Virus record (IMG/VR): IMGVR_UViG_3300004097_000031
Coordinates: 1-31,967 of that record
Source: a virus
Length of the DNA: 31,967 bases
Strand: one strand, 5' to 3'
Shown piece after piece: positions 13,486 to 31,951 of the stretch. Positions within the stretch are counted from its first letter, which is position 1. Each line of letters begins with the position of its first letter. A model generated the notes under the pieces. It saw nothing but the letters and a program-made list of their open reading frames with translations. It was not told the origin of the DNA and ran no database searches. Both the position numbers and the translations under genes were made by a program.

Positions 13486-13532
13486 ACAAATAAAAAAAAG
13501 GGGAGGCATGAAGCCTCTCGCTTTTATTTGTC
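13486..13532. terminator. Bidirectional terminator between spike and 13524-14759 genes
   Basis: The stem GGGGAGGC/GCCTCTCG (loop ATGAA, about 13500-13520) is bracketed by ACAAATAAAAAAAA on the left and TTTTATTTGTCGCGA on the right. The brackets are inverted copies of the same tail, so it works in both directions. The right T-run contains the stop codon of the minus-strand gene. Confidence 0.88.
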
Positions 13533-14759
13533 GCGACTAAAGTAATTGTAAATAGTCATATGTGATTTACGAAGAGGATTAGTTCCAACACGCGCATCAT
13601 TAATGCGTGCTAGCTTTTCCCACCCCATAGTTTCATTCACAAGGTTAGGTATTTCTTTCTCTGTCGTTTTCAATGCCCACTGCCCACATTCCCACACTGG
13701 CCAGTAATCAACAGCATTACCTAAATCGTTACGTAACGCACCAAGACGCGCAGTATCAGGAATAATGTAACTGCCAGCCATTGCAGCGTAACTAACCGCA
13801 GCGGTGTCCACAGCCATCTCAGCGTTATCAATCAACACCAAGAAACTATACTTCGATGTTAAGTAAGCAACCACATTAGCTTCATCCAAGAAACCATCCA
13901 CACTCACGCCATTGTTAATCTGATCTAATTCCATAAAGGAAAGATCCAATACTTCCATAGACCGAGTAATGCGATTCAATAGATCATAGTTCCCTAAACT
14001 AATAGAGATCATCGTATCCCCTATCTGCTTAACCATCCCATCTAATAAATGTAAATGCCCACCAATCACAATACCCACCGTCTTACCAGTAATACTCATC
14101 GTAGTATCAATCAGTAATGTATCATACCAAGTACTCTCAGTATTCACCGTGTTAATCATGTTAGCAGTAATAGGTACTTGCGTTATCTTCCCAACGTTCT
14201 CAAAGTTTAAGAACCCAGCATTCATCTCACCTGCTTTACTAACAGGCACAGCACAGTTCTCTACACGCACACCATATTCTTGATACTTACTCGTAAAGTA
14301 ATAACCATTAAAACTAAACAAACAATAATCAGTTATTAATCTACTATCCAGTTCTTCAAAGGTAAGAATGATATCATCAAAGTCACTCTCTACTGATTGT
14401 GAGGGATGGTAACCAGACTTAGCACCTTGCACTATTGTTTTATGATAATTAACAGGAACGTAGTTAACATAAGAAAAGGATAGCGTAGGAAGCCCGTCAG
14501 TTAACGCTAAGGCCGTATTGCCTAATAACCCTAGCCATTGCCCTACCGTCCAGTCACGATTGCTTAGCGCGCTCTCATAAGCGTATAAGTCCACCGTCTT
14601 CTTTTCCCCATAGAAATCCAGCACCCCAACTTCTATCTTCTTATAAGCAGAAAACAACGCTTCCATCGTCATCTCACCCACGTCAACCTCGCTCCATCTA
14701 TTCGTGCTCTTCTCTTTTACGATAGCATTCCCGCTCTCTAGAGTATACGACCCAGCCAT
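13524..14759 (-). CDS. Unrecognised protein, probably a virion component
   Basis: I do not recognise this 411-residue protein. AGGAGAG precedes the ATG and the gene is alone on its strand between the spike gene and the fibre cluster. The sequence is beta-rich with many aromatic residues (SFSYVNYVPVNYHKTIVQGA, CLFSFNGYYFTSKYQEYGVR) and a hydrophobic stretch VGIVIGGHLHLLDGMVK that is too polar for a membrane span. There is no signal peptide or catalytic motif. Placement between spike and fibres suggests a baseplate or tail role, for instance a fibre connector; this rests on location only. Confidence 0.75.
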   Translation of the reverse strand: MAGSYTLESGNAIVKEKSTNRWSEVDVGEMTMEALFSAYKKIEVGVLDFYGEKKTVDLYAYESALSNRDWTVGQWLGLLGNTALALTDGLPTLSFSYVNYVPVNYHKTIVQGAKSGYHPSQSVESDFDDIILTFEELDSRLITDYCLFSFNGYYFTSKYQEYGVRVENCAVPVSKAGEMNAGFLNFENVGKITQVPITANMINTVNTESTWYDTLLIDTTMSITGKTVGIVIGGHLHLLDGMVKQIGDTMISISLGNYDLLNRITRSMEVLDLSFMELDQINNGVSVDGFLDEANVVAYLTSKYSFLVLIDNAEMAVDTAAVSYAAMAGSYIIPDTARLGALRNDLGNAVDYWPVWECGQWALKTTEKEIPNLVNETMGWEKLARINDARVGTNPLRKSHMTIYNYFSRDK

Positions 14760-14862: not shown

Positions 14863-17800
14863 ATGACTCAGTTCACCTATCCATTTGACCCTAACGCAGC
14901 ACTAGCAGCTAACGTTATCAGTAATGAACAACACCCCCTCCCAGATACAACCCAAGGGTACCGTACTCTCTTTCCAACCTATGCTCCTTTCTATGATAAT
15001 AAGACGTTTAGTATTAAGGTAGATGATACACCATTAGCAATAGGGATTGATTACTATTTAACGCATAAGTACTTTAAAGCAGTAGAGAGAACAGGTAAGT
15101 TGGTTTATGGGGGTATTTGGTTTATTAATCCAAACTTAGTAGGGAATGTAAAGATAACGTATCATACCTTAGGGGGGAATACAGCAGTAACGGAGGAAAG
15201 AAAGACCGCTTACTTAACCGATCAATCAGCACCCCAATCTTCGTCTTGGGAAGAGGTACAAGATACTGAAGTGTATTTCCCAGCAGTGGATGTACAATTT
15301 GATAGAACTGAAAAGAAAGGTGAGGAGGATGTGACTTCGGTTGTTTCCGAAATTGCCACCAGTATAAGAGAGAAAGATAGAACACAGGAAGATATTTATT
15401 TATTACTCGATGAGTGGTTTTTAACCCTTGAAGAAGTGGTAGATGCTTCCCCTATTTCATCACACAAAAATAATGAATTAAATCCTCATCAAAATAATTG
15501 GTACAATGCCGGAGCCCTAGCTGAAACTGGCATCACTGTCGATGCGTCTACCGCGTACGGAAAGTCATTAGCTGAGCTAACATCGCATATAAACGCCCTA
15601 GGACTCACCCAGAGCGATTTAAACCAATATGTTAAGCTATCAGGCGGCAACACCCTGTTAGGGGACGTACGGTTGGCTGACGGCGCAATGGCGATACGCT
15701 TCACTGATAACGATCTCCCGGTAGCGCGCATTAACATGTCCTCTGGGAATATCCACTTAGACGTGGTAGGTGGTGGGATCATTCAGGCAGATAAGCACGC
15801 CAACAAAGCGGGCGTGATGGCAGAACTCAAAGCGGGTCCTATTACCTTACAAGTGGTCTCTACTGCAGATAGTCAAGATGATAACAGTTTACTGATTAAT
15901 GGTAAGGCGATTATGCATGAGGGTAATATTGCAGATCACCTATCAGAAGAAGCCAGTGGGTATATTCAAATTGCGGTAGAAGACACGAGTACATTAACGA
16001 TCTCTGGAAAAGGGATGGGGTATAATCCGTTAGAGGCTGATGCGGTATTAAAGCAGGCATCGGGTGGCGTTAATGGGGTCGCTAAGGGCAGTACTGCTAC
16101 TAACTCGTCTAGTGACACGGTAGCGGCGTTCTCAGAGGCGTCTAAGCAGGTGAATGATGAAGTGGCTGGCAAGGTAGACAGTGGATTGAAGATCAACAAT
16201 AAAGCGATTGATAATGATATCACGATTGTGCCTGCAGATATTGGGTTGGCTGCGGTAACGAATGTCGCTGATGCAGATATGCCTGTGACGGACCAACACC
16301 TGACTGCGTTAGAGGGTAAAGCCTTAGTAGGGCATACCCATGACTTCTCTGAAATGCAAGTACCTGATGCGACTGAGAGCGTGTATGGTATCTCTATCCT
16401 GAGTAAGGACTTAACGAAAGATGATGAGGCGTTAGCGTTCTCTGAAGTCAAATCGTACCATGAGAAAATAGAGACGTTAGAAGAGGAAGCGGGTTCTGCA
16501 GTTCCTGCTGATGCGATAGACTTAACCCAGTATGGTGGGAACAACTACTTACCTATTCCTGTTCTAGGGAGCTATGAAGCGTCTGGGAGCCAATCACAAC
16601 AACAAGGCTTAGGGGTATTGGTAGAACGTAATGGCGATCTTGTTATATTACGTAATGGGGAAGATGTTAATACGCGTGGTGTGTTCTATGCTTACGGGAC
16701 ATTAGACAGTGACGGTAAAATAGTGAGTCTTACTGCGACTGCAACACGATACAATCCGTCGTTTCTTCCATCTGGGGCCTTTGTAGAGTCTGTGGGGCGT
16801 AATACCGACGATGTGATGCTAAGTCTCGTCCGTAAAGCAGACGATTCATTAGTGGTGTATGCTACCTTACTGTACAATACCATGGATGATACACGCCATC
16901 TTGGTTGTGAGATAGTAGCTGACCTACGTACTGGTGTGAATGACTTCCATACTCATCAGATATTCGTACATGATGAAACAGTGTATATTCTAACGACGGT
17001 GAAGAATACATCCACTCCATTCCAAGTTGAATTACGCAGTGCACCCATTAGTGCATTTAAGTTAGATGAAGTCGTTACCTTTACTGAACTCGCTATTAGT
17101 GGTGTAGATCTATACGGTGATGCGGTTGCAGCAACACCTAATTACCCGTTAATTAGTAGTAATAATAAATGGTACAGTACTGAGGCGGAAGATAAACCTT
17201 TCATATTAGTAGATGAAGATTATACCTCTGCAAATGCTTATCACAGCAGTCGCCAGCAGACCGGGTTAGTTGTTCAAGCTAATCAGATGCGTGTTACCGT
17301 CGGGATGTCAACCGTAGGGTGGTACTCTACAGGCGTGCATACTGGACATACTGCATTTAGCTTTGTTATTGATTTAGATACGTTAGTACTAACGCCTGAT
17401 GATAACTGTAGACCGCCTATGGTGTTCTCAGCCGATCACAAACAGTCAGGTGAGTTATATCGTAATCCATCCTACCTAGTATCTGCAACAGGAAGTGGTT
17501 CGTGGGGTAGTAACTATTATACGGGCGGTTTTAGCTTCACTGCTCACGGATCACCCAATTTCGCCTATCGCTTAATTTCATGGGAAGATACTTCAGGAAG
17601 TGACTTTGACAATGCAGACATTAACCGCGGTGACATGAAATATATTGATGTTACAACAGTTGAAGGAAACTTCGGGAGTGTGGTTGAGGGGATTCCCTAT
17701 GCGGTAAGTATACAGCCGGGTAAGGTCATTAAGTTCTTACAACGGTCAGGTGCCGGAGCGGTAAAAGTTGCATACAGTGACGAGTCAACGTACGGTACTG

Positions 17801-20403
17801 AGTTTAGAGACTTGGGCCCAACAGAAGATCGAACAGCCATCAACGCATCAGTACTTTACGAAGACAAACATGCAATCACTGCCTCAGATGAAGATGGCAA
17901 TACATGGTGGGCAGGCGCTACAGTGGGTGACGGTATATTAAGTGTCACTAGAAATCCAGATACTAATGAAACGCTAACAATTAGCCAGACATTATTAGAT
18001 GAGATAAAAGCAGCGGCTGCCGCGATTGTTGCAGAGCCAACTGACACTGGCGTACATATGGGCTACTTAGCAGTGCTAACCGAACACGACAACACTGCCT
18101 TCTTTACACTGTACTTACTAGCAGAGTTAGCAACACCGTCTGTGTTGAAGTACTGCTTTAAAACGACATTTGATCTTAAAGTAACGGTAGTGGATGATGT
18201 AGTAACCGGATACAGCGACTTAAGTGTCATTGCATCTATACTGGTAAAAAGTAACGCTACACAGTTTTCCACTGGGTCTATAAACAACTGTAACTCGTCA
18301 GGTGTGTTAATACGGGATGATACGTACCACATGCTCCTTAATACCTCACCTACTATACATTACACAGGTTGGGCTGCATATTACACCTCTGCGGTTAAGT
18401 ACACCATCGCAACTGGCAGTAGTTCGCAGGTGTATAATTACACGTATGATGATCGCGGTGATGCAGAGGGCGGTTTACTCGTGCCGGGTGTGGGTTTAGT
18501 TACACTCTCTACCGATACTTCACAAACTGCTATTATGGGGACAGTGAATCATCCGGTTACTGGATGGTCGTCCGGTGAGAAGATATTGATCTCATCAGCA
18601 CAGGTGGTGTCAGGGTGGAATATCTACTTTACAGAAGAGATTGGCTATTTCTGCCAGAGTATCTATTTTCAAATGCCTGTATCAGCAGTGGACTTAAAAG
18701 CAGACTTCCCTGAAACGTATAAGAACAACACGTTCTACATATATGCGTCTATTGAGGGTGGTGATCCACACTACGTTGTATCAGAGCAGTATGTAACTGA
18801 CTCATCAACAGATACTTACATCGGTACTTGTAAAACTGGTAACACGCAGATACTGACCTTGGAAGTAGAACGTGCTACACGCTTAGGATCATTCAGAGAG
18901 ATGGAGGAGCATATAAACTCTTCAAGTCCTCATGGATTTGATCCATCTAGCGCTACCGCAGAAACGTTAGGGTTAGGACTAGTAGAAAACAAACCGTTAC
19001 GACAAACTTTAGTATCAACATCATTTGAGGAGGTATTCAACAGTTGGTATCGTTTATCACACTCACCAGACTTCCCACGTCAGTATCCCGCAATTCCTGA
19101 AGAAACAGAAAAGTGGGAATATGATGAAGAGACGGATTCAATACGTAATACGACCAACAGTGGTAGTATGGTAGCCATGATGTCTCCAGAAGACAACACA
19201 GTGGGTGATTACGACTTTGAAACAGTAGTTAGCTCAACGTCTGGTGATGATGATTGGATAGGGGTTATTATAGCGTTAGTGGAAAGAGACGGTATTGAGC
19301 ATACATTGTCAGTACTTGCCTCAGCCACAACGACGCATACGCAACACCTTACTATCGGTTACAACCATCGTCAGTCCGCTAATGAAGGTAATGTAACTAT
19401 CATAACGGATACAACTGATATAGTGGCTGGGTGGAATAAGTTCCCAGAACGTACTATAAAGGTAACGCGCCGAGGAAGCGTGTTTACCATTAAAGTTACT
19501 ACTTATCAGGAGATGGCGATTGGTCCAACACCAAACCGCATATCTGGCATGTCGGGGCCGCTACCAATGGTGCCTGCAAGTCTGAGTGGTCAACAAGATT
19601 TACGTTGGTTAGCTAGAAAGACCGCCTTTTTTAAGGCAGGAACAGTAACCTACAACGTGTTGACAGATGATAACAGTTATATCTATTTTGACGGTGTGTT
19701 AATTGCAAGTCCAACAACTGGCGAACTGGTAACAGGAACACTTGAAGTAACAGAAGGGGATCATGACATTGCTATCATGGTGCAGGAACTCTCTGGGTGG
19801 TCGTACGCGCTATGTAACTTTACAGATGGTACGAATTCTTACGATTCAGATACTACTTGGAAAGCAGCGGTTTATCATGGCACCTTCACAGGCACTAACT
19901 TAGATACTGCAGACCTAGAAGAGGTAATCCACGTAATTGATGTAAATGACCATGACTTCCTCGATATGTTTAAAGGGGCAGTTAGGTTCGGATACACAGC
20001 GTTGTCACAACCCAATTCAACATGGAAGAATATACTACGACCTGATGAAGACGGTAAGAACTATTATGCTACTCAAAAGCTGTTAACGGATACTGCAAGT
20101 TGGAGTAATCGTGCAATACACGCCACTGGGTTTGTGTGGGATACGTCAGTTGATGACGATGGGACATTCTTCTTTGATGTCCCTATTCCGGAAGGTGCAG
20201 TAGGGCGGGCATATCTAGCACAGGCGAGTTACGCAGACGCGGGCATCTCCCTTAGCGACGATAAAGGCTTAACTGATGCAAGAATATCCTCTTATAAGCT
20301 TGATGACTTTACTATCCGTTTCCGTGGTGATAAAGACATTGAATATTCACGATTACAGTATGCAATCACTTTTTACCTTGACGATCGACTAGTCGGGTTT
20401 TAA
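14863..20403 (+). CDS. Tail fibre 1 (large modular receptor-binding protein)
   Basis: The ATG at 14863 gives 1846 residues and has AGGG 9 nt upstream; the frame stays open further 5', but the N-terminus of the paralogues (Y-P-x-D-P) fixes this start. Residues 1-105 form the N-terminal domain shared by all four fibres (TYPFDPN, APFYDNKTF, GIDYYL, TLGG). A linker with INNKAIDNDIT and DIGLAAVTNV leads to GHTHDFSEM (H491, H493), like the metal-binding HxH of other fibres. A large beta-rich segment runs from QYGGNNYLP (556) to RATRLG (1337), then FREMEEHINSSSPHG and a concanavalin-like beta-sandwich. A PA14/lectin-like domain (1585-1671) is inserted before the C-terminal part. It is the first gene of the plus-strand fibre block, divergent from the gene at 13524. 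TAATTATAAAC at 14830-14840 is a weak candidate promoter. Confidence 0.9.
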   Translation: MTQFTYPFDPNAALAANVISNEQHPLPDTTQGYRTLFPTYAPFYDNKTFSIKVDDTPLAIGIDYYLTHKYFKAVERTGKLVYGGIWFINPNLVGNVKITYHTLGGNTAVTEERKTAYLTDQSAPQSSSWEEVQDTEVYFPAVDVQFDRTEKKGEEDVTSVVSEIATSIREKDRTQEDIYLLLDEWFLTLEEVVDASPISSHKNNELNPHQNNWYNAGALAETGITVDASTAYGKSLAELTSHINALGLTQSDLNQYVKLSGGNTLLGDVRLADGAMAIRFTDNDLPVARINMSSGNIHLDVVGGGIIQADKHANKAGVMAELKAGPITLQVVSTADSQDDNSLLINGKAIMHEGNIADHLSEEASGYIQIAVEDTSTLTISGKGMGYNPLEADAVLKQASGGVNGVAKGSTATNSSSDTVAAFSEASKQVNDEVAGKVDSGLKINNKAIDNDITIVPADIGLAAVTNVADADMPVTDQHLTALEGKALVGHTHDFSEMQVPDATESVYGISILSKDLTKDDEALAFSEVKSYHEKIETLEEEAGSAVPADAIDLTQYGGNNYLPIPVLGSYEASGSQSQQQGLGVLVERNGDLVILRNGEDVNTRGVFYAYGTLDSDGKIVSLTATATRYNPSFLPSGAFVESVGRNTDDVMLSLVRKADDSLVVYATLLYNTMDDTRHLGCEIVADLRTGVNDFHTHQIFVHDETVYILTTVKNTSTPFQVELRSAPISAFKLDEVVTFTELAISGVDLYGDAVAATPNYPLISSNNKWYSTEAEDKPFILVDEDYTSANAYHSSRQQTGLVVQANQMRVTVGMSTVGWYSTGVHTGHTAFSFVIDLDTLVLTPDDNCRPPMVFSADHKQSGELYRNPSYLVSATGSGSWGSNYYTGGFSFTAHGSPNFAYRLISWEDTSGSDFDNADINRGDMKYIDVTTVEGNFGSVVEGIPYAVSIQPGKVIKFLQRSGAGAVKVAYSDESTYGTEFRDLGPTEDRTAINASVLYEDKHAITASDEDGNTWWAGATVGDGILSVTRNPDTNETLTISQTLLDEIKAAAAAIVAEPTDTGVHMGYLAVLTEHDNTAFFTLYLLAELATPSVLKYCFKTTFDLKVTVVDDVVTGYSDLSVIASILVKSNATQFSTGSINNCNSSGVLIRDDTYHMLLNTSPTIHYTGWAAYYTSAVKYTIATGSSSQVYNYTYDDRGDAEGGLLVPGVGLVTLSTDTSQTAIMGTVNHPVTGWSSGEKILISSAQVVSGWNIYFTEEIGYFCQSIYFQMPVSAVDLKADFPETYKNNTFYIYASIEGGDPHYVVSEQYVTDSSTDTYIGTCKTGNTQILTLEVERATRLGSFREMEEHINSSSPHGFDPSSATAETLGLGLVENKPLRQTLVSTSFEEVFNSWYRLSHSPDFPRQYPAIPEETEKWEYDEETDSIRNTTNSGSMVAMMSPEDNTVGDYDFETVVSSTSGDDDWIGVIIALVERDGIEHTLSVLASATTTHTQHLTIGYNHRQSANEGNVTIITDTTDIVAGWNKFPERTIKVTRRGSVFTIKVTTYQEMAIGPTPNRISGMSGPLPMVPASLSGQQDLRWLARKTAFFKAGTVTYNVLTDDNSYIYFDGVLIASPTTGELVTGTLEVTEGDHDIAIMVQELSGWSYALCNFTDGTNSYDSDTTWKAAVYHGTFTGTNLDTADLEEVIHVIDVNDHDFLDMFKGAVRFGYTALSQPNSTWKNILRPDEDGKNYYATQKLLTDTASWSNRAIHATGFVWDTSVDDDGTFFFDVPIPEGAVGRAYLAQASYADAGISLSDDKGLTDARISSYKLDDFTIRFRGDKDIEYSRLQYAITFYLDDRLVGF
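19615..19875 (+). other. PA14/lectin-like domain in fibre 1 (copy near C-terminus)
   Basis: Fibre 1 residues about 1585-1671 read K-T-A-F-F-K-A-G, then TDDNSYIYFDGVLI, LEVTEGDHDIAIMVQ and DGTN...TTW. The same spaced pattern occurs in fibre 3 at 24883-25155. The AG...DD...DG...EG-H order resembles PA14/GLEYA-type sugar-binding domains; that family call is by eye. Confidence 0.65.
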
Positions 20404-20420
20404 TACAGGAGACATTAAAC

Positions 20421-23400
20421 ATGTCAATACAAGTCACATATCCACATGACCCATCAGCGGTCATGGATGTGTGCCTTATTAAGGACGAGAACCACGTTAT
20501 TATTACCAATGATAATTCATACCGTGTAATCGTACCTGAACTGGCACCATTCTTTAAACTGAATTTAGTGATAGTGCATGCTATTTCAGGATTGGTCTTA
20601 TCTGAAGGCACCGACTACAACTTAGGCTACAAGTTAATAGATGCCGCTAAGATTGCTAACCGCGAACTCTTTGGCGCTATTGTTATTACTAACCCTAACC
20701 TAAAAGGGGAGTTTGTCCTAGAGTATAGAACGGTAGGTGGAGATTACGTAGGTATTCAGAGCGCTGTATTAAAGCATCTGGCTGACTTACTAACAGATCC
20801 AGCTAAGGTCTACTTTGAGAACATACTAGATAGACCCTCGTACAGTACACCTGTAAAGCATGAACAACATTATTCAGACTTTGCTAATAAAGAGAGTCTA
20901 GCGGCGAGTATTGATGAGATATCAGCAGCATTAGACTCAGCAGCAGCTGAATCGTCAGCGACAGCACTGGACGATATAAAGGGACGTATAAAAGCCCTTG
21001 ATAATTACCTAACGTCTGTTCGTTATGAATTACATATCAAAGATACGACTAATCCGCACAATGAAACAGCAAAGCAGGTAGGCGCATTAGAACTTAACGC
21101 AGACGCAGTTGACGCATTCAGTGTATATGGCCGTAGTTTAGTAGAGTTAGCAGAATACATCAATAGTCGTGGTGTTACACAGACAGATATTGACGCTTAT
21201 CTACATTCGCACTCTAGCAGTGACTATTCTGGAGACCTTATATTAAAAGACGGAAAATCAGTCTTACGTAATGAAGCAGGTACTACTGAGATAGACCTCG
21301 CTAACGGAAATATAACAATTAAGTCTGAGTTGATGTCAGAGTTGTTTGTAGACTCTACCGTCAGTAATGCAAATGAGCGTATTGTCCTACAGTCAGGTCT
21401 AAACGTCTTAGAGATTATCTCTTCAGGCACTAACGGGTTTGGTACAAGTACTTTACGCTATAATGGGCATGTAGTATTAGATGCAAATAATGCAGCAGGC
21501 TTATTAGCGGGAATTACATCAGGTGGGATGGTTGTTGTTACTAATGACACCAGTACTATTAAGTGGTCAGGGCAAGGAACGGAAGCTTCGCCATTAGAAG
21601 CTACGCTAACGCTCCCTGAGGCGACTACTACTGAAGTAGGTGGTGTTAAGTTATCAAACACTAGAACTGCGTCAGGGACATCTACAGCGCCAACCTCTTA
21701 TGTTATCAATGAGATCAGAAAAGACCTCAATAACAAACTAGACGGCAGCATTAAAGTAAATGGCCACACATTAGACAGTAATCCCGTATTAGATAAAGAT
21801 GACCTTTACCTAGATAAGGTAGATAATACATCAGATGCTAATAAACCTATTTCTGCAGAACAGGAAGCGCTGATTGATCTTTACTCTGAAGTGGGACACA
21901 AACATACCGGGGACGATATAGCTTTCCCAGTAGCCACAGGTGCTGATAAGGGCATTATGCGACTAGCAGATACGTTAGACGACAATGATCTAGAAGGGGC
22001 CGTAGCAACGCCTCTATTACTACAGCAGTTAAATGAAGACATCGTTGATTTAGCAACCCTATCTGCACGCCTCATGCCAAGTGATGTATTAGATGTACGT
22101 TACTGGGAACCTGTTGGTGATGTTGTATGTGCAGGAACCACTATTACGTTCCCTGCAGGTGCATTGCTATATATGCAGCAGGTAGACTATAGTGCAAATA
22201 CTGAATTATCTAATGTAGGTGCCGTATTAGACTTTGCAGCGTTATTCCCAACTAACTATACAAACCAAACGTTTTACATTTACATAGGGGTTGAAGAAGA
22301 CGCTATCATCTATTGGGCAGATCGCAACAAGTTAGTCAACAGTGGCCCACAGATGCATATTGCAACGATAAGGCTATCTAACACTGATATCATGGATATG
22401 TCTAGTGTGAATGGTGGTGTCAATACTTACGAAAGTAATATCGGTGGGATTCTTCAGGTTAAACCTGTGACATCGGTGGGTATCTTTAGAGAACTCGTGG
22501 AACATACAGAAGACGATAACCCACACAGCGGTTCATCACTTAACCTATCCAGTAACACGATAGGATTAGACTTAATGAGCAACTACCGTGCGGTTACTTA
22601 TATGTCAGATGCAAGTCATCAAGGTGTTAAGTACTGGGACATCCTTTCTACGTTCTCACCTGCTAACGCTAAAGCAACTGCTAGCGATATCACGATTAAG
22701 AATGGGTCAGTAGACCTTAACGTCGGCTCACTGTTAGAACTGCCATTAACAAGCGGAACTAACCAACTGGTGTTGTTTAGAAACCCTAACTTTGAGTTCA
22801 ATGATCCAGACCGAGCTATTACCACGGATTTAGGTGAGAAACAACGTTATGTTGAATACAACCTAAATGTGGATAACGCCGCAGTTAGTACGCCAACAGT
22901 AGAGACGTGGGGGATCGTCTTAGGGTCTTATATAGACCCTGTGGGATTGGTCCATGATATCTTGTTCTTACCTAGACGCGTTAAAGGTGCTTATGTCGGC
23001 TTCTCCCTATTCTACTATATCAACGGAATAGAAGAAGAAGTACTGTTTAATCACGACCCAACGATTACGGGAACGGATGCTAATTTTGTTACACTAACAG
23101 CATCGTTGGAATACACCCCAACCGCAGTCGGGTTTCAATACAGCGCAGTGGTACGTTACCATGCAGTAACTGAAACGCGTACGTTTAGACTAGACCTTGA
23201 TATCGCCAACTCGGAAGCAGTGATTGACTTCTATGCTTACTTAAATACTGACACACAACCTGACATATTAGCATCTAAGACAATATCCATAACATCAGGC
23301 TATGTTAAGAATGTACTATTGTCAGGTACTATCGGTTTCGGTGGGTATGTGACCAGTACAGGAAGTGCAGATACATTCCAAATGACAGTCGATGCACGCA

Positions 23401-23708
23401 GATCCTATGAAATAAAACAAGACGAGCGGTATGTATCGGCAGCTGCAGTTTACCAGTCTTTGAAAGACGGCTGTAACATGTACGTTGCAACAGGTACATT
23501 AGCGCCGGGCGAAACGCTGCCAGAGGTGCCTCATGCATCGAAGACGATTGTTTACACTGGTTTAACACAGTTAGGTACCACCGAAAGTACCGCGGCGATA
23601 GATACCTTCACAGCCATAAGTGGTAAGGTAGAACAATCTGTTTTAAATGATAATACTAAAACTGAAGCACCTAGTACATTCATGATCATTGGCTATCGTG
23701 ACTTGTAA
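20421..23708 (+). CDS. Tail fibre 2 (shorter paralogue)
   Basis: The 1095-residue protein starts 18 nt after fibre 1, with AGGAGA as Shine-Dalgarno. It shares the N-terminal domain (TYPHDPS, LAPFFKLNL, GTDYNLGY, TVGG), a helical linker with a NNYLTSVRYELHIKDTTNPH segment, the DILKDG-type strand repeats, INGHTLDSN-like linker (VNGHTLDSNPVLDKDDLYLD) and the HxH motif GHKHTGDD (H493, H495). It then passes almost directly to the FRELVEHTEDDNPHSG module (about 688), lacking roughly 650 residues present in fibres 1 and 3. The C-terminal 400 residues contain the concanavalin-like sandwich (GIVLGSYIDPVGLVHDI) and end in MIIGYRDL. No PA14-like insert is present. It could be a structural companion of the large fibres or a fibre for a different receptor. 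Confidence 0.88.
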   Translation: MSIQVTYPHDPSAVMDVCLIKDENHVIITNDNSYRVIVPELAPFFKLNLVIVHAISGLVLSEGTDYNLGYKLIDAAKIANRELFGAIVITNPNLKGEFVLEYRTVGGDYVGIQSAVLKHLADLLTDPAKVYFENILDRPSYSTPVKHEQHYSDFANKESLAASIDEISAALDSAAAESSATALDDIKGRIKALDNYLTSVRYELHIKDTTNPHNETAKQVGALELNADAVDAFSVYGRSLVELAEYINSRGVTQTDIDAYLHSHSSSDYSGDLILKDGKSVLRNEAGTTEIDLANGNITIKSELMSELFVDSTVSNANERIVLQSGLNVLEIISSGTNGFGTSTLRYNGHVVLDANNAAGLLAGITSGGMVVVTNDTSTIKWSGQGTEASPLEATLTLPEATTTEVGGVKLSNTRTASGTSTAPTSYVINEIRKDLNNKLDGSIKVNGHTLDSNPVLDKDDLYLDKVDNTSDANKPISAEQEALIDLYSEVGHKHTGDDIAFPVATGADKGIMRLADTLDDNDLEGAVATPLLLQQLNEDIVDLATLSARLMPSDVLDVRYWEPVGDVVCAGTTITFPAGALLYMQQVDYSANTELSNVGAVLDFAALFPTNYTNQTFYIYIGVEEDAIIYWADRNKLVNSGPQMHIATIRLSNTDIMDMSSVNGGVNTYESNIGGILQVKPVTSVGIFRELVEHTEDDNPHSGSSLNLSSNTIGLDLMSNYRAVTYMSDASHQGVKYWDILSTFSPANAKATASDITIKNGSVDLNVGSLLELPLTSGTNQLVLFRNPNFEFNDPDRAITTDLGEKQRYVEYNLNVDNAAVSTPTVETWGIVLGSYIDPVGLVHDILFLPRRVKGAYVGFSLFYYINGIEEEVLFNHDPTITGTDANFVTLTASLEYTPTAVGFQYSAVVRYHAVTETRTFRLDLDIANSEAVIDFYAYLNTDTQPDILASKTISITSGYVKNVLLSGTIGFGGYVTSTGSADTFQMTVDARRSYEIKQDERYVSAAAVYQSLKDGCNMYVATGTLAPGETLPEVPHASKTIVYTGLTQLGTTESTAAIDTFTAISGKVEQSVLNDNTKTEAPSTFMIIGYRDL

Positions 23709-23716
23709 CAACTAAC

Positions 23717-23736
23717 GGTGGGGGTAATGTCCCACC
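23717..23736 (+). other. Hairpin between fibre 2 and fibre 3
   Basis: GGTGGG and CCCACC form a 6-bp stem with an 8-nt loop in the 61-base gap between the fibre genes. There is no T-run, so it is not a standard terminator. It may slow RNA decay, be a processing site or reduce read-through. Confidence 0.4.
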
Positions 23737-23769
23737 TAACCCCAACATACAAACTTAGAGGTTAATCTG

Positions 23770-26700
23770 ATGTCAACATACGCATACCCTTATGACCCAA
23801 GTGGAAGCAATCCAGAATGTGTGGTATCTAATGAATCACATCCTTTGGTTAACTATCCAAATGAATGGCGTTGTATCATTCCCTTATATGCACCATTCTA
23901 TAGAAAAGACCTAGTACTGCGTATCGTTGAAACTGGACGAATCCTGTATGAAGGTATTGACTACTACTTAGGACATTATTACAAAGAAGCTTCTGAGGCA
24001 ACTAAGTTACCTGTCTTTGGTAGTATTATGTTCTTAGATAAAACAAGCACGGCTACGGTTGAGTTTGTGACCTATCAAACATTAGGTGGACGTTACAATA
24101 CACTACAACGTGTTATTGATGCATACTTAAGTAAGGTGGACTTAAAAGACCCAAGAAATGAAGATTGGAACGATGTTACTTTAGCGGTTCAGTCGGTAGC
24201 ACCTGTAGAAGCTCCAGAGAACTACCTAGAAGCACGTAGTGATGATCCTGTAACCAAAGCGCTAACGGGTGTTAAAGATCGCTTACGTTCTCTTGTAGAC
24301 GCACAGGCTACCGGGTACGATGATGTCATTGAAAGTCTTTCCACATTAGCAACACGAATAGCTGACCACGATATTGCCAGACACCACACTCACCAAGGTG
24401 TGCACAACGTTACCTTAGCCCAACTAGGCGCACTAGGGAAAGACGCAACAGCAAAGAATGCATTAAAAGCATACGGTTATTCTTTATCTCAACTTGCTGA
24501 ACTCATCAATGGGATGACCTCAGGTCCTGAAGACCTAGACCGCCTCTTTAAGCTAGTAGGCGATACCTTAACAGGGGAACTTCGCTTACAGGGCGAGAAT
24601 GTCCTTATAAAGAACAGTTCTGGTACAAGTGTTATTAACCTTGCTAATGGGAACCTGCAAATCATAGCAGAATCAGGCGTTAGTATCACGTCAGACACAG
24701 GAGATACAACCAGTGGGATTCCGGTAGGTCTTAGAGCGGGGGATAACCTATTAACGGTGCATCCAGACACAGGGGACTTTACCGTACCTGTAGCACACAG
24801 CGTACAGGCTTCATTAGTACATCCTGATGCAGTGTCTATTGCCCCTACGGCTAACTACCAAGAAGACGATGGCGTCTTTGCAGTTTATAAGAACATCTAC
24901 TTTAATGCAGGCGTAATTGATTGGATAGTGTCTGCTGACGATGAAGTTATCTTAGCGATAGATGGCATTATCCTCCATAACGGCGACGCCTACCCGGCTA
25001 ACGTATCTGGCATGGTAGAGATAACTGAAGGCTACCACTGGGTATCGATGGTCGTAACAAACAGCGCTGGCCATTGTCGTGTGAACGCAGCCTTTGACAA
25101 TGACGGTAGTGTAACAACGACTGACACGTCTTGGACGCTCCTACAAACCACGCTAGCAGAAAGAGACGATGCGGTTTATAACTACCCAACAGTACTTGAT
25201 GATAACGTTGTCTATAATGGCGTCTTTGTTATCCATGCGGGTAATGTAGCGCAATACGTTCCTGCCTCAGAGTACAGTGATACTTACTTACATGTTGAAC
25301 CAACCGACACGGTTGAGTTAATGGGACGTGGTATTGAAGAATCTCCTTTATTTGGGGCGGTAACATTACCTGTAGCCTCTACTGCTAAGAATGGGGTATT
25401 TAAACTCTCTTCTTCTATCTACAGTGGTTCTAAAACACTAGTAGCAACTGCAAGCGCTGTACGTGCTATCATGTTATTAGCTGATGGCAAGCTAGACGAT
25501 ACTGCAACGATTAACGGCAAACGGTTAAACAATGACATTACATTAACAAAAGCAGACCTAGGACTGGGGAACGTAAACAATACAGCGCCAGCAGATAAAC
25601 CTGTGTCTACTGCATTTACTGCAGCCATTGCTAATAAGTCACCGACAAACCACACCCATAGCGCAGAAGATTTCGGCGATGTCCCTGCAGCAACTAATGA
25701 CTCACACGGTTCAGTTAAACTAACTACTACGGTAAGTGATAGTACCACACTAGCTGCAACACCTATTATGCTAGCCGAGGTGAAAGAGGGTGTGTTATCA
25801 GCAGAGGTGTCAGTAGGGAAGTCTTTATTCTCTACCCCATTTGATATCATGCAGTATGGTGGGTTTGGCTACTTACCTGTCCCTGTGTTAGGTAAATATG
25901 GTGCAGCTGGGTTATCAGCATATAGAACCGTAGGACTTATTGAGACCAACGGCGATCTAGTGTTGTTACGTAACGGTGCTGACTTAAGTACAAGTGGTGT
26001 TTACTACTGGTATGTGTCTTATAAGGCAGATGGTAGTTTTGGAGAGCCTACGGCAACCACTACTGAGTACTTACCTGAATTCATTCCGGCAGGTCAAACG
26101 GTTGCAACGGTTCAACGTGGTACTGAGGGCGTCTTCTTACTACAGTCTAGTAATGATGACATTTATGTTGTCCTTACACGTAACACTATGGACAGTGATA
26201 AACATGCAGGAGCTAAGATAGGTATATTTGATGGGTTCAATCCGTTAGATAATGCAAGTACCTGTATCTTGTGGAAAGACAAGGTAGTATTCACCTACCA
26301 GTACAGTGGCGATAGTGGACTTAAGTTCTCTATATGGACATGTGATATCGCAGATATTGAGAGTGGTGGCCCGCTAACATTAACCGCAGTTAAAACAACC
26401 TGTGATAGATGGGACGGCACTAAAAGTACAGCTGCAACCTCTACATACTTCACTAACGTCGGGAAATCAAGCGATCCAGATGACTTCCCTTTCTTATTAA
26501 CCACCGTGGATTCAGGATGGACTACGGTACAGACCCGTCGTGGCGTTAATAGCCCACATCTAGCGATATCGGGAAACCGTTTAAGAATGGCGCTAGATAA
26601 CCGCCCATGGGTGAGTAACTCACAACAGGCTAAAGCAACTGCAATGGTATTCTCTTGGGTATTAGACCTAGAGACGATGCATGCAGTCTTTGATGGTGAT

Positions 26701-29313
26701 AACTTCCCGTACACAATAGACTCAACAGGCTTTGTTTATAAGGACAGTAAAGTTGACGGTTGGCCATTCCCTAACGTGGGTAGTGGTAGTACATTAACTA
26801 CTATATCGTCACGCGGTAAACAGATCCTAGTAAGGTACCACAATGCAACGTCACCACCGTTCCTACGTTCATATGAAGATAAGAATGGACTAAGCCACTT
26901 TGATAGTCTAGATAATAGTGTCGGCGATTACACGCTGATAGACCTTGTCTACATATCAGGTAGCTACGGGTCCGTTGTAAAGCCTAATGCTAAGCAGATG
27001 GGTTGGATAGGTGAAGACCGTTTTGTTTGTCGACAAATAGACAACAGTTCGGTTATAGTGGAAGTTGATACAGACGGCCATATTGAGGGAACAGACTCAC
27101 GTGGATTTGGATTAACCGCTAACCGTCAATCTATTACTACGACTGAATACTACGAGGCACTGCGTGTTCCGATGTTGTGGGATACCGTGAAGCAGTCTGG
27201 TGGTTCATTAAGCCTTGCGGTGATGTCGTGGAACACAGAGTACGCGAACGATACCCCTAGTGGGAATATGTTCTGGACAAACGATACCCTCGGTGAAGCA
27301 ACAACCGCGTTCAGAGCGATACATCCGGTAGAGGGCACTGAGATATTATTCGGTGATCGCGTTATGTTCCACATGTTTGGTACAATGGCATCAAGCGATA
27401 TGTTTGTAGCCTATACTAGAATGCAGTATACTGACGACGCTAAAACACGTAGAACTGCAATCATGTATTACCACCGATGTACTATCACTAACAACGGTGA
27501 TGAAGTAACACGCATCATCATAGGGGATGAGATTGGTAATAAGTACTTTGCCAATAATGTAACTTCGTGGAACACGTTCGAGGACTTCGGTCAGAATAGC
27601 AAGGTAACGTTAGATGATGGGAATACATTATACATTATCAATAAGTCACATTACGTTAACTGGGTAGGATATGGTGGCGGATTAAACATGTCTGTTATCT
27701 ATTCACCTAGTGGTGAAGTACTGTGGACAAACTTCGATAACGAATATAGCCCAGTAATGTATGGCTCACATTATCATCCTAAGCTTGGTTTTCACAAACC
27801 TAGAACGGAAGCTGCGGGTGAAGCACTTAGAGCGGTTGTCTATGGCAAGACATTAGCAGAGATAACGTCAGGGACTTCATACGAGGTTATTATACACAGT
27901 ACACAGGTAGCTACTGGTTTAATCCTTTACTTTACTGAAGTATCTCGTTTCTTTGTAAATGGCAATGCTTACGAGTTACCCGTTCAGAGTATCGACCTAT
28001 CCACATATGGTGTACCTTACGCTAACGAGACACTGTACCTATATGTTGTGTTAGCTACAGACGCTGACGGAAACCAATACCCTGAGTATGTCATATCTGC
28101 AACACAGGCCGACGACACCGAACTTTCTCTATTCATTGGCACAGTCACATGCGATGATTCAACAATCACTGACATTAACGTACAGCGCGCCACGCGCCTA
28201 GGGGAGATTTACGAGTTAGAGGAACATGCCAACACGGTTGATGCGCACGGTAAGGACTTTTTGATAGGGGGTGCTGCATACGGGCTAGGGAACTTAAAGA
28301 ATATGGGTATGTTACATACGCTACAGTTACCTACCTTTAAAGATGTATTCAATAACTGGATACGTCTGTCACACCTTAACACTAACGATACCCAACCCGC
28401 AAAAGAATCTGAACTTGATACATGGAAATATGATGAGGTGGACGATATCGTCTCTAACGACACCAACACGACGACCTTTGTTGGTCTGGCAAGTAAGGTT
28501 GAGTTAGGTGATGGCGTATTCGATACCATTATAGGGTCTAGCACTAACGACGATGACTCACTTGTAATAATTCTAGCATACAAGGTAGGTCCCGACGGCC
28601 GTGAGAAAACGATTTGTGCTGTAGCAACACGGACGATTAAGGGTGTCCACACTAAGACAAAAACTAACTTCGACATCTGGTATAACTACCACCAGTCGGA
28701 TGCTATCCTTTTGGCTAACTCTATCAAGGCTAAAGAGTACGGCGGATGGAATGGGAATTTCTTACGGATACGTTCAGAACGTGAGGGAAATATCTACACG
28801 GTTACTGAAACACCAATGAAGACAGGTACCACTATCGCAGATCATCCAATCGACGATACGGCAAATCACTATACATTTACTTTAGATGACTACCCAGAAC
28901 TGAGTGTCTTTAAAGATAGTGCAAGCTTTGGTTACGGTGCCATGTCTCAACCGGGATGTCAATACTACAATATACAGCGTCCGGATGAAGATGTGAGTAA
29001 CTACTATGCATCTGCCGAGATGGTACGTGTAATGTATGAAGCATTGTCTAATACAGTAAGGCATGCTACAGGTGTAGTTAGCGGAGGAAAGACCATACCA
29101 ACACCGTTCGGCTTCACTGAAGATGACTGTGAGGTTGTCTTATCGTATGAATCATCAGGCAGTACTACAGAAGTACGCTACATGAACATCACACTTAAGG
29201 GCATGGTCGCGAATATGGACGTGGGATATGTTGGGTCTAGTGAAATTAAAACTAACCCAAGTGGCAGTTCTATTAGGTACTATTTAATAGCAAGAAAAAA
29301 TGCAGAGGTATAA
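23770..29313 (+). CDS. Tail fibre 3 (large paralogue of fibre 1)
   Basis: The 1847-residue protein has GAGGT upstream of its ATG. Its order is: shared N-terminal domain (AYPYDPSGS, YAPFYRKDL, GIDYYLGHYY, TLGG; 1-115), a helical linker with a HHTHQGVH segment, strand repeats (GELRLQGENVLI), a PA14/lectin-like insert (372-462), INGKRLNNDITLTKADLGLG linker, HxH motif NHTHSAED (H628, H630), QYGGFGYLPVPVLG (695), a 780-residue beta-rich central segment, RATRLGEIYELEEHANTVDA (1473), a concanavalin-like sandwich and a C-terminal part ending YYLIARKNAEV. The central segment is collinear with that of fibre 1 but only moderately similar. The following Tfa-like gene begins 3 nt later and probably helps this protein trimerise. 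Confidence 0.9.
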   Translation: MSTYAYPYDPSGSNPECVVSNESHPLVNYPNEWRCIIPLYAPFYRKDLVLRIVETGRILYEGIDYYLGHYYKEASEATKLPVFGSIMFLDKTSTATVEFVTYQTLGGRYNTLQRVIDAYLSKVDLKDPRNEDWNDVTLAVQSVAPVEAPENYLEARSDDPVTKALTGVKDRLRSLVDAQATGYDDVIESLSTLATRIADHDIARHHTHQGVHNVTLAQLGALGKDATAKNALKAYGYSLSQLAELINGMTSGPEDLDRLFKLVGDTLTGELRLQGENVLIKNSSGTSVINLANGNLQIIAESGVSITSDTGDTTSGIPVGLRAGDNLLTVHPDTGDFTVPVAHSVQASLVHPDAVSIAPTANYQEDDGVFAVYKNIYFNAGVIDWIVSADDEVILAIDGIILHNGDAYPANVSGMVEITEGYHWVSMVVTNSAGHCRVNAAFDNDGSVTTTDTSWTLLQTTLAERDDAVYNYPTVLDDNVVYNGVFVIHAGNVAQYVPASEYSDTYLHVEPTDTVELMGRGIEESPLFGAVTLPVASTAKNGVFKLSSSIYSGSKTLVATASAVRAIMLLADGKLDDTATINGKRLNNDITLTKADLGLGNVNNTAPADKPVSTAFTAAIANKSPTNHTHSAEDFGDVPAATNDSHGSVKLTTTVSDSTTLAATPIMLAEVKEGVLSAEVSVGKSLFSTPFDIMQYGGFGYLPVPVLGKYGAAGLSAYRTVGLIETNGDLVLLRNGADLSTSGVYYWYVSYKADGSFGEPTATTTEYLPEFIPAGQTVATVQRGTEGVFLLQSSNDDIYVVLTRNTMDSDKHAGAKIGIFDGFNPLDNASTCILWKDKVVFTYQYSGDSGLKFSIWTCDIADIESGGPLTLTAVKTTCDRWDGTKSTAATSTYFTNVGKSSDPDDFPFLLTTVDSGWTTVQTRRGVNSPHLAISGNRLRMALDNRPWVSNSQQAKATAMVFSWVLDLETMHAVFDGDNFPYTIDSTGFVYKDSKVDGWPFPNVGSGSTLTTISSRGKQILVRYHNATSPPFLRSYEDKNGLSHFDSLDNSVGDYTLIDLVYISGSYGSVVKPNAKQMGWIGEDRFVCRQIDNSSVIVEVDTDGHIEGTDSRGFGLTANRQSITTTEYYEALRVPMLWDTVKQSGGSLSLAVMSWNTEYANDTPSGNMFWTNDTLGEATTAFRAIHPVEGTEILFGDRVMFHMFGTMASSDMFVAYTRMQYTDDAKTRRTAIMYYHRCTITNNGDEVTRIIIGDEIGNKYFANNVTSWNTFEDFGQNSKVTLDDGNTLYIINKSHYVNWVGYGGGLNMSVIYSPSGEVLWTNFDNEYSPVMYGSHYHPKLGFHKPRTEAAGEALRAVVYGKTLAEITSGTSYEVIIHSTQVATGLILYFTEVSRFFVNGNAYELPVQSIDLSTYGVPYANETLYLYVVLATDADGNQYPEYVISATQADDTELSLFIGTVTCDDSTITDINVQRATRLGEIYELEEHANTVDAHGKDFLIGGAAYGLGNLKNMGMLHTLQLPTFKDVFNNWIRLSHLNTNDTQPAKESELDTWKYDEVDDIVSNDTNTTTFVGLASKVELGDGVFDTIIGSSTNDDDSLVIILAYKVGPDGREKTICAVATRTIKGVHTKTKTNFDIWYNYHQSDAILLANSIKAKEYGGWNGNFLRIRSEREGNIYTVTETPMKTGTTIADHPIDDTANHYTFTLDDYPELSVFKDSASFGYGAMSQPGCQYYNIQRPDEDVSNYYASAEMVRVMYEALSNTVRHATGVVSGGKTIPTPFGFTEDDCEVVLSYESSGSTTEVRYMNITLKGMVANMDVGYVGSSEIKTNPSGSSIRYYLIARKNAEV
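24883..25155 (+). other. PA14/lectin-like domain in fibre 3 (copy near N-terminus)
   Basis: Fibre 3 residues about 372-462 read K-N-I-Y-F-N-A-G, SADDEVILAIDGIIL, VEITEGYHWVSMVV and NDGSV...TSW, matching the fibre 1 domain at 19615-19875 position by position. In fibre 3 it lies upstream of the HxH motif rather than near the C-terminus. Confidence 0.65.
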
Positions 29314-29315
29314 TT

Positions 29316-29705
29316 ATGTTTTATGGATTTAAGAAATCGACAGGCAAATGTGTTTGGTCGATTGATGTTAAACCGACACAACCTGATGGTGTTGTTATCC
29401 TAGAGTCTGAGATAGACTACGATATTGGCAAGGTGTGTTTAGGCGGCACTGAAGACGCACCTACCATTGATGCAGTCATCATGTCCGAAGAAGAGAAGCT
29501 AGCTAATGAGAAGTCAAAGCGTGACTACTTGTTAAATATCGCAACCGCTAAAGTGGGTGTGTTAGCTGACGTTGTCGAGTTCGCTAACACTGAAGAGAGT
29601 GAAGCCAATTTAGAACAGTGGCGCAAGTACCGCGTAGAGTTATACCGCCTAGATTTCACAGATCTAGATAACATTAAATGGCCAACTGAGCCAGCGGCTT
29701 ATTAA
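29316..29705 (+). CDS. Tail fibre assembly chaperone (Tfa / Caudo_TAP-like)
   Basis: The 129-residue protein ends in the pattern typical of Tfa proteins: a helix with EEEKLANEKSKRDYLLNIAT, a second helix EANLEQWRKYRVELYRLD and the tail NIKWPTEPAAY (W..YR..L...D...I.WP..P). Tfa proteins bind the C-terminus of a fibre and promote its folding or trimerisation. The N-terminal 60 residues contain short beta-strands (MFYGFKKSTGKCVWSIDVKP). The ATG is 2 nt after the stop of fibre 3, with GAGG 8 nt upstream inside that gene, so coupling to fibre 3 is expected and that fibre is the likely client. Confidence 0.85.
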   Translation: MFYGFKKSTGKCVWSIDVKPTQPDGVVILESEIDYDIGKVCLGGTEDAPTIDAVIMSEEEKLANEKSKRDYLLNIATAKVGVLADVVEFANTEESEANLEQWRKYRVELYRLDFTDLDNIKWPTEPAAY

Positions 29706-29713
29706 ACAATAAA

Positions 29714-29752
29714 TGGAGGGTGAGTCTGTAGTGGACTCACTTATTTACTATG
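29714..29752 (+). promoter_or_regulatory. Structured ribosome binding site of fibre 4
   Basis: GGAGG (29715-29719) lies 30 nt before the ATG at 29750, too far for normal initiation. The bases between are a perfect hairpin: GTGAGTC (29720-29726), loop TGTAGTG, GACTCAC (29734-29740). Folding it leaves TTATTTACT, a 9-nt spacer, between Shine-Dalgarno and ATG. No other Shine-Dalgarno is near the start, and the start is fixed by homology to the other fibres. Confidence 0.8.
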
Positions 29753-31315: not shown

Positions 31316-31951
31316 ATGGCAAACTTACAACACGAAAAATTTAAGAAAGAATGTATCGACGGTGAAACTGACGTAGAAGGTGGTCATGTAAATGATCCGA
31401 ATGATCTAGGTAAAGAAACCAACCACGGTATTACGATTGCAGTTGCAGTGAAGCGTAAGAAAGATCTCATCGCTAAATTTGGATGGGACGGCACGATGGT
31501 CAACCTATCGAAAGATATGGCGTACTATCTTTACGGTGTCGACTTTTGGGATAACATGTATTTAGACCAAGTATGTGACCGCTCTTATGCACTAGCACGT
31601 ACTATGTTCCGTTGGGGCCTTAAATCTGGTTCTACTCGTCCTGTTAGCGCAATACAAGAATCATTAAACTGCCTTAACAACCGCCAGAAGTATTGGAACA
31701 ATATCGTCGCTGACGGATACATGGGACCTACTACCTTGAAGACGATTGATGCGTTATTATTAAAACGTGGACATTATACAGGTATGTCTTTCTTAGTAGC
31801 ACAAACTAACGCTGACCAAATGTGTTGGATGAAAGAGATCACCCTCGCACGCGCTAAAGAAGCTAACGAGAAATATTACTGGGGTTGGAACATTCGCTGT
31901 ATCCGCGAAGTTATCGGCTACGTAAGATCGTATTACATCAAAGACGTTTAA
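31316..31951 (+). CDS. GH108 endolysin (N-acetylmuramidase) with peptidoglycan-binding domain
   Basis: The 211-residue protein opens with the GH108 motif VEGGHVNDPNDLGKETNHGIT (E21 is the expected catalytic Glu). The rest fits the family: a helical core and the C-terminal DGYMGPTTLKTIDALL, which matches the peptidoglycan-binding part that accompanies GH108 (PF09374). It hydrolyses the MurNAc-GlcNAc bond. There is no signal peptide or membrane anchor, so release to the periplasm would require a holin, which is not identified in this window. GGAG lies 8 nt before the ATG, 24 nt after fibre 4. The start of a further terminator-like tail (GCGACAAAAAAA) follows the stop. Confidence 0.92.
   Translation: MANLQHEKFKKECIDGETDVEGGHVNDPNDLGKETNHGITIAVAVKRKKDLIAKFGWDGTMVNLSKDMAYYLYGVDFWDNMYLDQVCDRSYALARTMFRWGLKSGSTRPVSAIQESLNCLNNRQKYWNNIVADGYMGPTTLKTIDALLLKRGHYTGMSFLVAQTNADQMCWMKEITLARAKEANEKYYWGWNIRCIREVIGYVRSYYIKDV

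Follow-up and report, generated by a model that had tools for sequence, protein, structure and literature searches.

How two paralogous phage fibres of almost equal length came to hold a lectin-like domain at different sites is the question raised by the window analyzed here, the whole 31,967-base virus record IMGVR_UViG_3300004097_000031, whose right half is filled by a fibre gene cluster. Fibre 1 (1846 aa; 14863..20403, plus strand, from ATG) is the orthologue of gp125 of Vibrio phage pVa-21, and fibre 3 (1847 aa; 23770..29313, plus strand) is the orthologue of pVa-21 gp123 and of gp124 of Vibrio phage pVp-JHP1101. The open reading frame (ORF) of fibre 1 is also readable from GTG at 14704; the alignment with its orthologue begins at residue 1 of the ATG start. 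A preliminary description of this DNA proposed that one sugar-binding-like module of about 136 residues had been placed at opposite ends of the two proteins and could be a mobile host-range cassette. The analysis points to a related answer, held to be reasonably probable: the inserts would be members of a PA14-like module family used as fibre add-ons by jumbo phages, gained twice in the window lineage and likely binding glycans in a calcium-dependent manner.

The landmark distances reported in the preliminary description were recomputed and found to be correct. In fibre 1, counted from the ATG at 14863, the HxH motif lies at 491, QYGG at 556 and RATRLG at 1337, leaving a tail of 509 residues, and the corresponding values in fibre 3 are 628, 695, 1473 and 374. 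The two proteins share 29-30% identity over two long pieces of 1265 and 336 columns and are old paralogues. The pVa-21 and pVp-JHP1101 orthologues of both fibres are shorter, with 1699-1715 residues, and in pVp-JHP1101 the two fibres share one ruler (HxH at 492 and 373 residues from RATRLG to the end in fibre 1; 488 and 372 in fibre 3). Measured against this ruler, fibre 1 of the window keeps the HxH distance (491) and has a lengthened tail (509), and fibre 3 keeps the tail (374) and has a lengthened HxH distance (628). RATRLG was unusable as a landmark in fibre 1 of pVa-21 and in the IMG/VR contigs L049 and L050, where the motif is altered.

Residue-level alignment with the orthologues placed both inserts. 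Fibre 3 residues 1-336 and 477-1847 were aligned with residues 1-336 and 337-1715 of pVp-JHP1101 gp124, in which 336 and 337 are contiguous, and the sole gap of at least 5 residues was the 140-residue block 337-476, inserted without loss. This insert (24778..25197, plus strand; profile core 24826-25152) is located in the N-terminal part, directly before the VYNG..IHAGN segment. For fibre 1, residues 1-1546 and 1692-1844 were aligned with residues 1-1548 and 1562-1714 of pVa-21 gp125, with a net surplus of 132 residues that MAFFT divides into 51, 66 and 15; the remaining gaps of at least 5 residues were +11, -8 and -8. The fibre 1 insert is assigned to residues 1547-1685, with approximate ends (19501..19917, plus strand; profile core 19558-19881), and is matched by the module profile at E 4.7e-45, in a model that contains this row. 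The length difference is thus concentrated, as one block in fibre 3 and as a large surplus at one place in fibre 1, rather than spread over many small gaps. As for the proposed opposite ends, the N-terminal-part insert of fibre 3 agrees with the proposal, and the fibre 1 module is not terminal: by alignment, it is nested within a conserved C-terminal domain. Relatives without either insert, which the preliminary description had suggested looking for, were found: both inserts are absent from the four closest relatives (4/4 orthologues of each fibre, from pVa-21, pVp-JHP1101, L049 and L050), which have short linkers at the sites. Contig L051, whose match is the same as that of L050, was not counted.

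Local alignment of the two inserts gave a score of 100, compared with a mean of 31 (SD 5.6) and a maximum of 63 in 2000 shuffles, and windows of the other fibre starting away from its insert scored at most 35 (fibre 3) or 51 (fibre 1). With the same succession of predicted strands in both (see below), the two segments belong to one domain family, as had been suggested. The narrower claim that one module was placed twice was not supported. The window copies are 23% identical over 105 positions and no closer to each other than to the copy in a small fibre of pVa-21 (28% and 24%), whereas identity is 41-53% between the fibre 3 backbones of pVa-21 and the window, so the copies look like two family members and not like a recently moved segment. 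Their pairing in module trees was weak. A first tree placed them in an open group of 10 rows (support 58/38), and a second paired them at 55/17 and joined them with the pVa-21 and pVp-JHP1101 copies at 65/86; for these trees the tool warned of long branches meeting.

AlphaFold models of the inserts were built from 18-row alignments, and the two models are not fully independent because the other insert sits as a row in each alignment. Both models show the same succession of seven strands, at 29-38, 41-49, 52-57, 60-63, 70-77, 80-89 and 97-102 in fibre 1 (mean predicted local distance difference test score, pLDDT, 75.8) and at 38-47, 50-58, 61-66, 69-73, 79-87, 90-99 and 107-113 in fibre 3 (mean pLDDT 60.3; blocks 41-100 at 76-88, and 57 of 146 residues below 50). 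In Foldseek searches against the PDB, both models had PA14 sugar-binding domains from RTX adhesins at ranks 1-9 (best E 2.3e-4 for fibre 1 and 5.1e-5 for fibre 3), which agrees with the suggested PA14 likeness. Adhesin entries of the GLEYA/Flo5-Epa kind (Epa1, Flo5 and Lg-Flo1) followed below PA14 (E 2.6e-3 to about 2e-2), and Pfam gave no GLEYA match for the inserts. VIA-align favored other sandwiches: the GH78 rhamnosidase 2okx (Z 10.5), the phage Chi tail tip 8vjh_B (10.3), the Pleurotus ostreatus lectin POL (10.2) and 3w5n (9.8) for fibre 1, and POL (Z 9.5) at the top for fibre 3, with 8vjh_B at 8.3. At the profile level, the best PDB sequence match of the 18-module profile was also POL (E 1.2e-9), and a six-module profile, with five Asp-Asp rows and one Asp-Asn row (pVa-21), matched the RTX-protein chain 36gk (E 3.5e-8) and MpPA14 (about 6e-4). 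Among viral models, the fibre 1 module matched best a 534-residue protein (E 4.6e-7), which has the length of the pVa-21 small fibre, followed by several phage proteins, some named PA14 domain-containing; BFVD entries with this name, from uncultured phages and cyanophages, matched the fibre 1 model at E of about 1e-3 and weaker.

The PA14 likeness extends to a candidate calcium site. In MpPA14, the sugar-binding calcium is held by Asp110-Asp111, and Gln156, Gly157 and Asp159 of loop 11 contribute (PMC8092209). In the six-module profile alignment, the Asp pair of the modules lines up with the only Asp pair present in the aligned part of MpPA14, and the numbering agrees because the loop 11 residues Gln-Gly-Gly-Asp show the same offset, nine. 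In the window, Asp1602-Asp1603 of fibre 1 (19666..19671, plus strand) and Asp390-Asp391 of fibre 3 (24937..24942, plus strand) were aligned with the calcium-binding Asp pair of PA14 lectins, so that by alignment both copies appear to keep the consecutive Asp pair that is the DcisD feature of these lectins. Among 22 of the 24 distinct modules described below (the fibre 2 modules of L028 and L080 were left out of this count and of the module tree), nine have Asp-Asp and two, in pVa-21 and pVp-JHP1101, have Asp-Asn.

The module family extends well beyond the window. An iterated profile run on 2880 ORFs of at least 80 aa from the window and 57 further loci gave 36 matches at E < 0.01, and zero matches at that threshold on reversed or shuffled copies of the same ORFs. 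The 36 matches represent 24 distinct modules and 12 same-sequence repeats, all in ORFs identified as fibre genes. In a whole-record profile search, 13 of 20 phage records matched at E <= 1 and 12 at E <= 1e-4. Four of these 12 (the window, pVa-21, pVp-JHP1101 and Cronobacter phage CR5) had supplied rows to the model, and the other eight had not: Derbicus, Phobos, SPN3US, pEa_SNUABM_29, Wellington, ChrisDB, phiEaH2 and pEa_SNUABM_11. Aphrodite1 gave a weak module match (E 0.011), and no module was found by this search in Serratia phage BF, Psa21, SURPRISE13, AR9, KpLz-2_45, 201phi2-1 or RAY. The pVa-21 module used as a tblastn query against 50,697 phage records matched only pVa-21 and pVp-JHP1101. 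Scans of viral_contigs with whole fibre 3, with a four-module alignment and with the pVa-21 small fibre found no relative; scans with fibre-family alignments did find relatives.

Six contexts of the module were distinguished. Two are those of the window, the N-terminal part of fibre 3 and a loop of the C-terminal domain of fibre 1. In a third, the module follows the strand HVLTI in fibre 2 of contig L049, and in a fourth, it precedes a strand of the FFIY or HFVY kind in fibre 2 of CR5-type phages, where this strand was read in CR5, Derbicus, Wellington and SPN3US and the other members were placed by gene and position. In the fifth context, the module sits at the C-terminal end of fibre 3: it comes after the conserved C-terminal domain in CR5, Derbicus and Phobos, stands apparently without that domain in Wellington and pEa_SNUABM_11, and is also present in L080. 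The sixth is the N-terminal part of a separate 534-residue fibre of pVa-21 (pVa_089) and pVp-JHP1101 (pVp_090), in which the module is followed by a relative of the same C-terminal domain in which the fibre 1 insert is nested (E 6e-21 with fibre 1 of L050, for example). The idea of a mobile module is thus borne out at the level of the family, which occupies several contexts in related phages, and fails for a single recently moved cassette. CR5, Derbicus and Phobos likewise have a longer version of the fibre 1 insertion loop. Further weak signals were seen in fibre 2, near the C-terminal end in Phobos (locus L014:8417-8674; a second match, E 0.015 and 0.043) and, weaker still, in Derbicus (second match, 0.69).

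These results can be accommodated in one scheme. The modules would form a lineage-wide family of small, beta-sandwich, PA14-like add-ons in phiKZ-related jumbo phages, seated at loops and junctions of large fibre proteins. After the duplication that produced fibres 1 and 3, the window lineage would have gained two diverged members, placed in the N-terminal part of fibre 3 and in the C-terminal domain of fibre 1, presumably by domain-level recombination rather than through a dedicated mobile element. Judged by fold and motif, the modules would most likely provide extra calcium-dependent glycan-binding sites exposed on the fibre, in which a calcium ion seated on the Asp-Asp pair would bind the diols of surface sugars, and so would give the fibre a secondary grip on capsule, lipopolysaccharide or exopolysaccharide. 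As the preliminary description suggested, the two sites could conceivably expose the module at different heights along the shaft, and the module could influence host range.

The history of the inserts was read on a backbone tree of fibre 1 and fibre 3 sequences without modules, obtained with a quick method, with Shimodaira-Hasegawa-like approximate likelihood ratio test (SH-aLRT) supports only and midpoint rooting. Window fibre 3 was sister to the pVa-21/pVp-JHP1101 pair (94), with L049 and L050 outside (94 and 98), and the five fibre 1 sequences grouped together (100), with the window as the first to branch off (96), a grouping by which the paralogues predate the split of these phages. On this tree, the shortest history for fibre 3 would be one gain on the window branch, compared with three losses, and for fibre 1 a gain would be shortest if fibre 3 is taken as outgroup, by one step only. 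It was also observed that window fibre 1 branches before L050 and L049 and that window fibre 3 has pVa-21 as its sister, a pattern that may reflect different histories of two fibres in the same phage or misleading long branches. That the modules were already present in the ancestors of fibres 1 and 3, with parallel loss in the relatives, is unlikely. This alternative fits the age of the module family in the wider lineage and the basal place of the window in the fibre 1 group, where a single loss in the ancestor of the other four would suffice, but it requires three losses in fibre 3 (in the pVa-21/pVp-JHP1101 ancestor, in L049 and in L050) against one gain; moreover, 0/9 CR5-type fibre 3 sequences in the backbone tree match at the site used in the window, and the pVp-JHP1101 junction is contiguous and without remnant. 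Very improbable is a cassette recently copied or moved between the fibres within this genome by a mobile or programmed mechanism. The copies do occur in the same phage, belong to the same family and have similar lengths, and the fibre 3 insert is in frame with no loss at its site; against this stand the low identity of the copies, on which a recent duplication was rejected, and their equal distance from the small-fibre copy of a sister phage. Nor was an exact direct repeat of more than 6 bases shared at the junctions (60 bases on either side of both), and insertion by a repeat-leaving element was discarded on this ground. Base composition gave no clear sign of a foreign source, being ordinary in fibre 1 (GC content 0.451 in the insert and 0.440 in the gene) and slightly high in fibre 3 (0.471 and 0.439; about 1.4 SD above windows of the same gene).

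A different doubt concerns function. The reading of the modules as gained, calcium-dependent glycan binders has several results against it. The fibre 3 model is moderately confident (pLDDT 60), and the Foldseek TM-score to PA14 was just about 0.47-0.48 of the query. In VIA-align, PA14 reached Z 7.3 for fibre 3, and no PA14 chain was present among the best 50 matches listed for fibre 1 (lowest Z 7.3). Pfam PA14 and GLEYA gave no match with the two inserts at E <= 10 or with 18 modules at E <= 1. In tblastn searches of 50,697 phage records, the fibre 3 insert found pVp-JHP1101 alone at E <= 1 (E 0.05) and the fibre 1 insert found pVa-21 alone (E 7e-4), so that single sequences hardly detect the modules and the family rests on profiles. 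Since the window branches first among the fibre 1 sequences, the gain in fibre 1 depends on fibre 3 as outgroup. The loop 11 ligands are not kept, being replaced by S/A/H in fibre 3 and L/S/W in fibre 1, so specificity, and perhaps binding itself, may differ from MpPA14. Finally, 11 of the 22 modules, all at one fibre 2 loop of CR5-type phages, have neither Asp-Asp nor Asp-Asn, and calcium-dependent binding therefore cannot be general. The lack of the loop 11 ligands and of the Asp pair at the fibre 2 loop, together with the similar fold in the phage Chi tail tip, would also suit modules that are structural, that is, beta-sandwich knobs or spacers that stiffen the trimer or touch another virion protein, an alternative of clearly lower probability. 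Set against it are the top structural and best sequence neighbors, most of which are lectins or sugar-binding domains, the Asp pair kept in both window copies, and the changing insertion sites, which are more in keeping with an exposed add-on for binding than with a structural part in a fixed place. As to the earlier label of a PA14/GLEYA-like domain, the models support a lectin-like fold class. With no Pfam match, and with PA14 and the lectin- or GH78-type sandwiches ranked differently by Foldseek and VIA-align, the module is termed PA14-like and is not assigned to the PA14 family.

The remainder of the cluster resembles that of related phages. Between the two large fibres lies fibre 2 (1095 aa; 20421..23708, plus strand), in which no module was detected in the window phage; its homologues in L049 and CR5-type phages do have one. 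Fibre 3 is followed by a tail fibre assembly protein (Caudo_TAP; 29316..29705, plus strand; Pfam PF02413, E 6.5e-12), by fibre 4 (29750..31291, plus strand), which has the N-terminal part common to the fibre family, and by a glycosyl hydrolase 108 protein (31316-31951). On the other side, a conserved neighbor gene (13524..14759, minus strand) matches phrog_3337 at E 3.9e-105, and its positional counterpart in pVa-21 is annotated as a putative virion structural protein; farther upstream, PHROGs identified an SbcC-like nuclease subunit (8715-11204) and a nudix hydrolase (6501-7049). In pVa-21 and pVp-JHP1101, homologues of the three large fibres occur in the same order, and after them come genes for an assembly protein, a smaller fibre homologue and a lytic transglycosylase. 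Three large genes in a similar row, adjoining an opposite-strand structural or hypothetical gene, are found in Cronobacter phage CR5, in the Erwinia phages Derbicus, Phobos, Wellington and ChrisDB, and in Salmonella phage SPN3US. Phage pVa-22, also a Vibrio alginolyticus phage, is described as phiKZ-like by its authors.

Several further features of these fibres were noted. Contig L049 carries two successive fibre 4 homologues (L049:18394-20028 and 20543-21955), with 42% and 40% identity to that of the window over 374 and 388 columns. The annotated start of pVa-21 gp123 (locus L002:12440-17539) corresponds to residue 18 of window fibre 3, and because pVp-JHP1101 and the window begin earlier, it may be misplaced. 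The fibre 1 orthologue of L050 (L050:5681-8947) is without about 680 residues, equivalent to about 568-1249 of window fibre 1, from just past QYGG to ISSAQVV, and its layout is therefore that of fibre 2; the comparison marks the large middle part as another optional component of these fibres. Tail fibre genes of the Bacillus phages PBS1 (E 8e-16) and AR9 (E 1e-15) are also matched by the conserved C-terminal fibre domain (window 28312-29139), over fibre 3 residues 1522-1674. Its identification as a concanavalin-like lectin was dropped, with a best E of 0.99 in a PDB sequence search and no support from Pfam, and it is named only the conserved C-terminal domain because neither search assigned a fold.

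Known systems resemble the modules to different degrees. MpPA14, a domain of the RTX adhesin MpAFP (PDB 5j6y and 6x7j; PMC8092209), was the best Foldseek match of both modules and has the aligned Asp pair, but the module core has about 100 residues, compared with 182 in the MpPA14 construct, belongs to a phage fibre, and is without Gln156, Gly157 and Asp159 and without the Pfam match, in addition to the lower place of PA14 in VIA-align. POL (6kc2) and the beta-sandwich domains of GH78 rhamnosidases (2okx and 3w5n) had the top VIA-align Z scores, with POL as the best profile match; these are a fungal lectin and bacterial enzymes, however, and the comparison covers fold and profile. Closest in organization are the tail-protein inserts of siphophages. 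Lactococcal skunaviruses regain infection of hosts bearing exopolysaccharide through carbohydrate-binding insertions in the distal tail protein ("evolved Dit"; PMC10688798), several virion proteins of 936 phages carry carbohydrate-binding modules (PMC6669499), and an effect on adsorption is reported for evolved Dit (PMC10688798, PMC6669499). Like the modules described here, these inserts are in frame, lie in conserved tail proteins, and occur in only part of the relatives; comparison with module-free orthologues, 4/4 for each fibre, showed the present inserts to be in frame. They differ in that theirs occur in tail, neck and baseplate proteins of lactococcal phages, whereas one family with a predicted role occupies many sites of large jumbo-phage fibres here.

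Discoidin and concanavalin-type lectin domains have been reported in virion components of jumbo phages (PMC7824862); the word PA14 is absent from the available text of that paper, the passages of which name neither this module nor changing sites. Within a limited search that included the available passages of PMC7824862 and PMC6472347 (on pVa-21), no description of the module was found. Domain shuffling in phage receptor-binding proteins is general, with shared domains in otherwise different proteins (PMC10684548); in the present case, the sites are readable at residue level in orthologues as well as paralogues. Carbohydrate-binding inserts in phage tail proteins, as exchangeable add-ons for host recognition, were thus already known, and the case described here is an unusually clear one. 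It adds a single module family with insertion sites that the alignments make legible residue by residue in jumbo-phage fibres, both orthologous and paralogous. A more far-reaching and doubtful proposal is that phiKZ-related jumbo phages keep a pool of diverged PA14-like lectin modules that are repeatedly relocated among tolerant loops of the three large fibres and the small fibre, so that the position of the module, and not only its specificity, would be under selection; the copies at the fibre 2 loop would then have given up calcium binding, and copies at other sites would have kept the acidic pair.

The phiKZ-related jumbo phages recognize their hosts through very large fibres in which few domains are annotated. 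The readable insertion sites mark positions that these fibres tolerate, and the modules are small, expressible domains suited to glycan-binding tests. The presence of the same kind of module at different places of one fibre family, with and without the calcium pair, offers a natural comparison. In these phages, the module looks like an exchangeable add-on for host recognition and is, by its sequence and predicted fold, probably sugar-binding.

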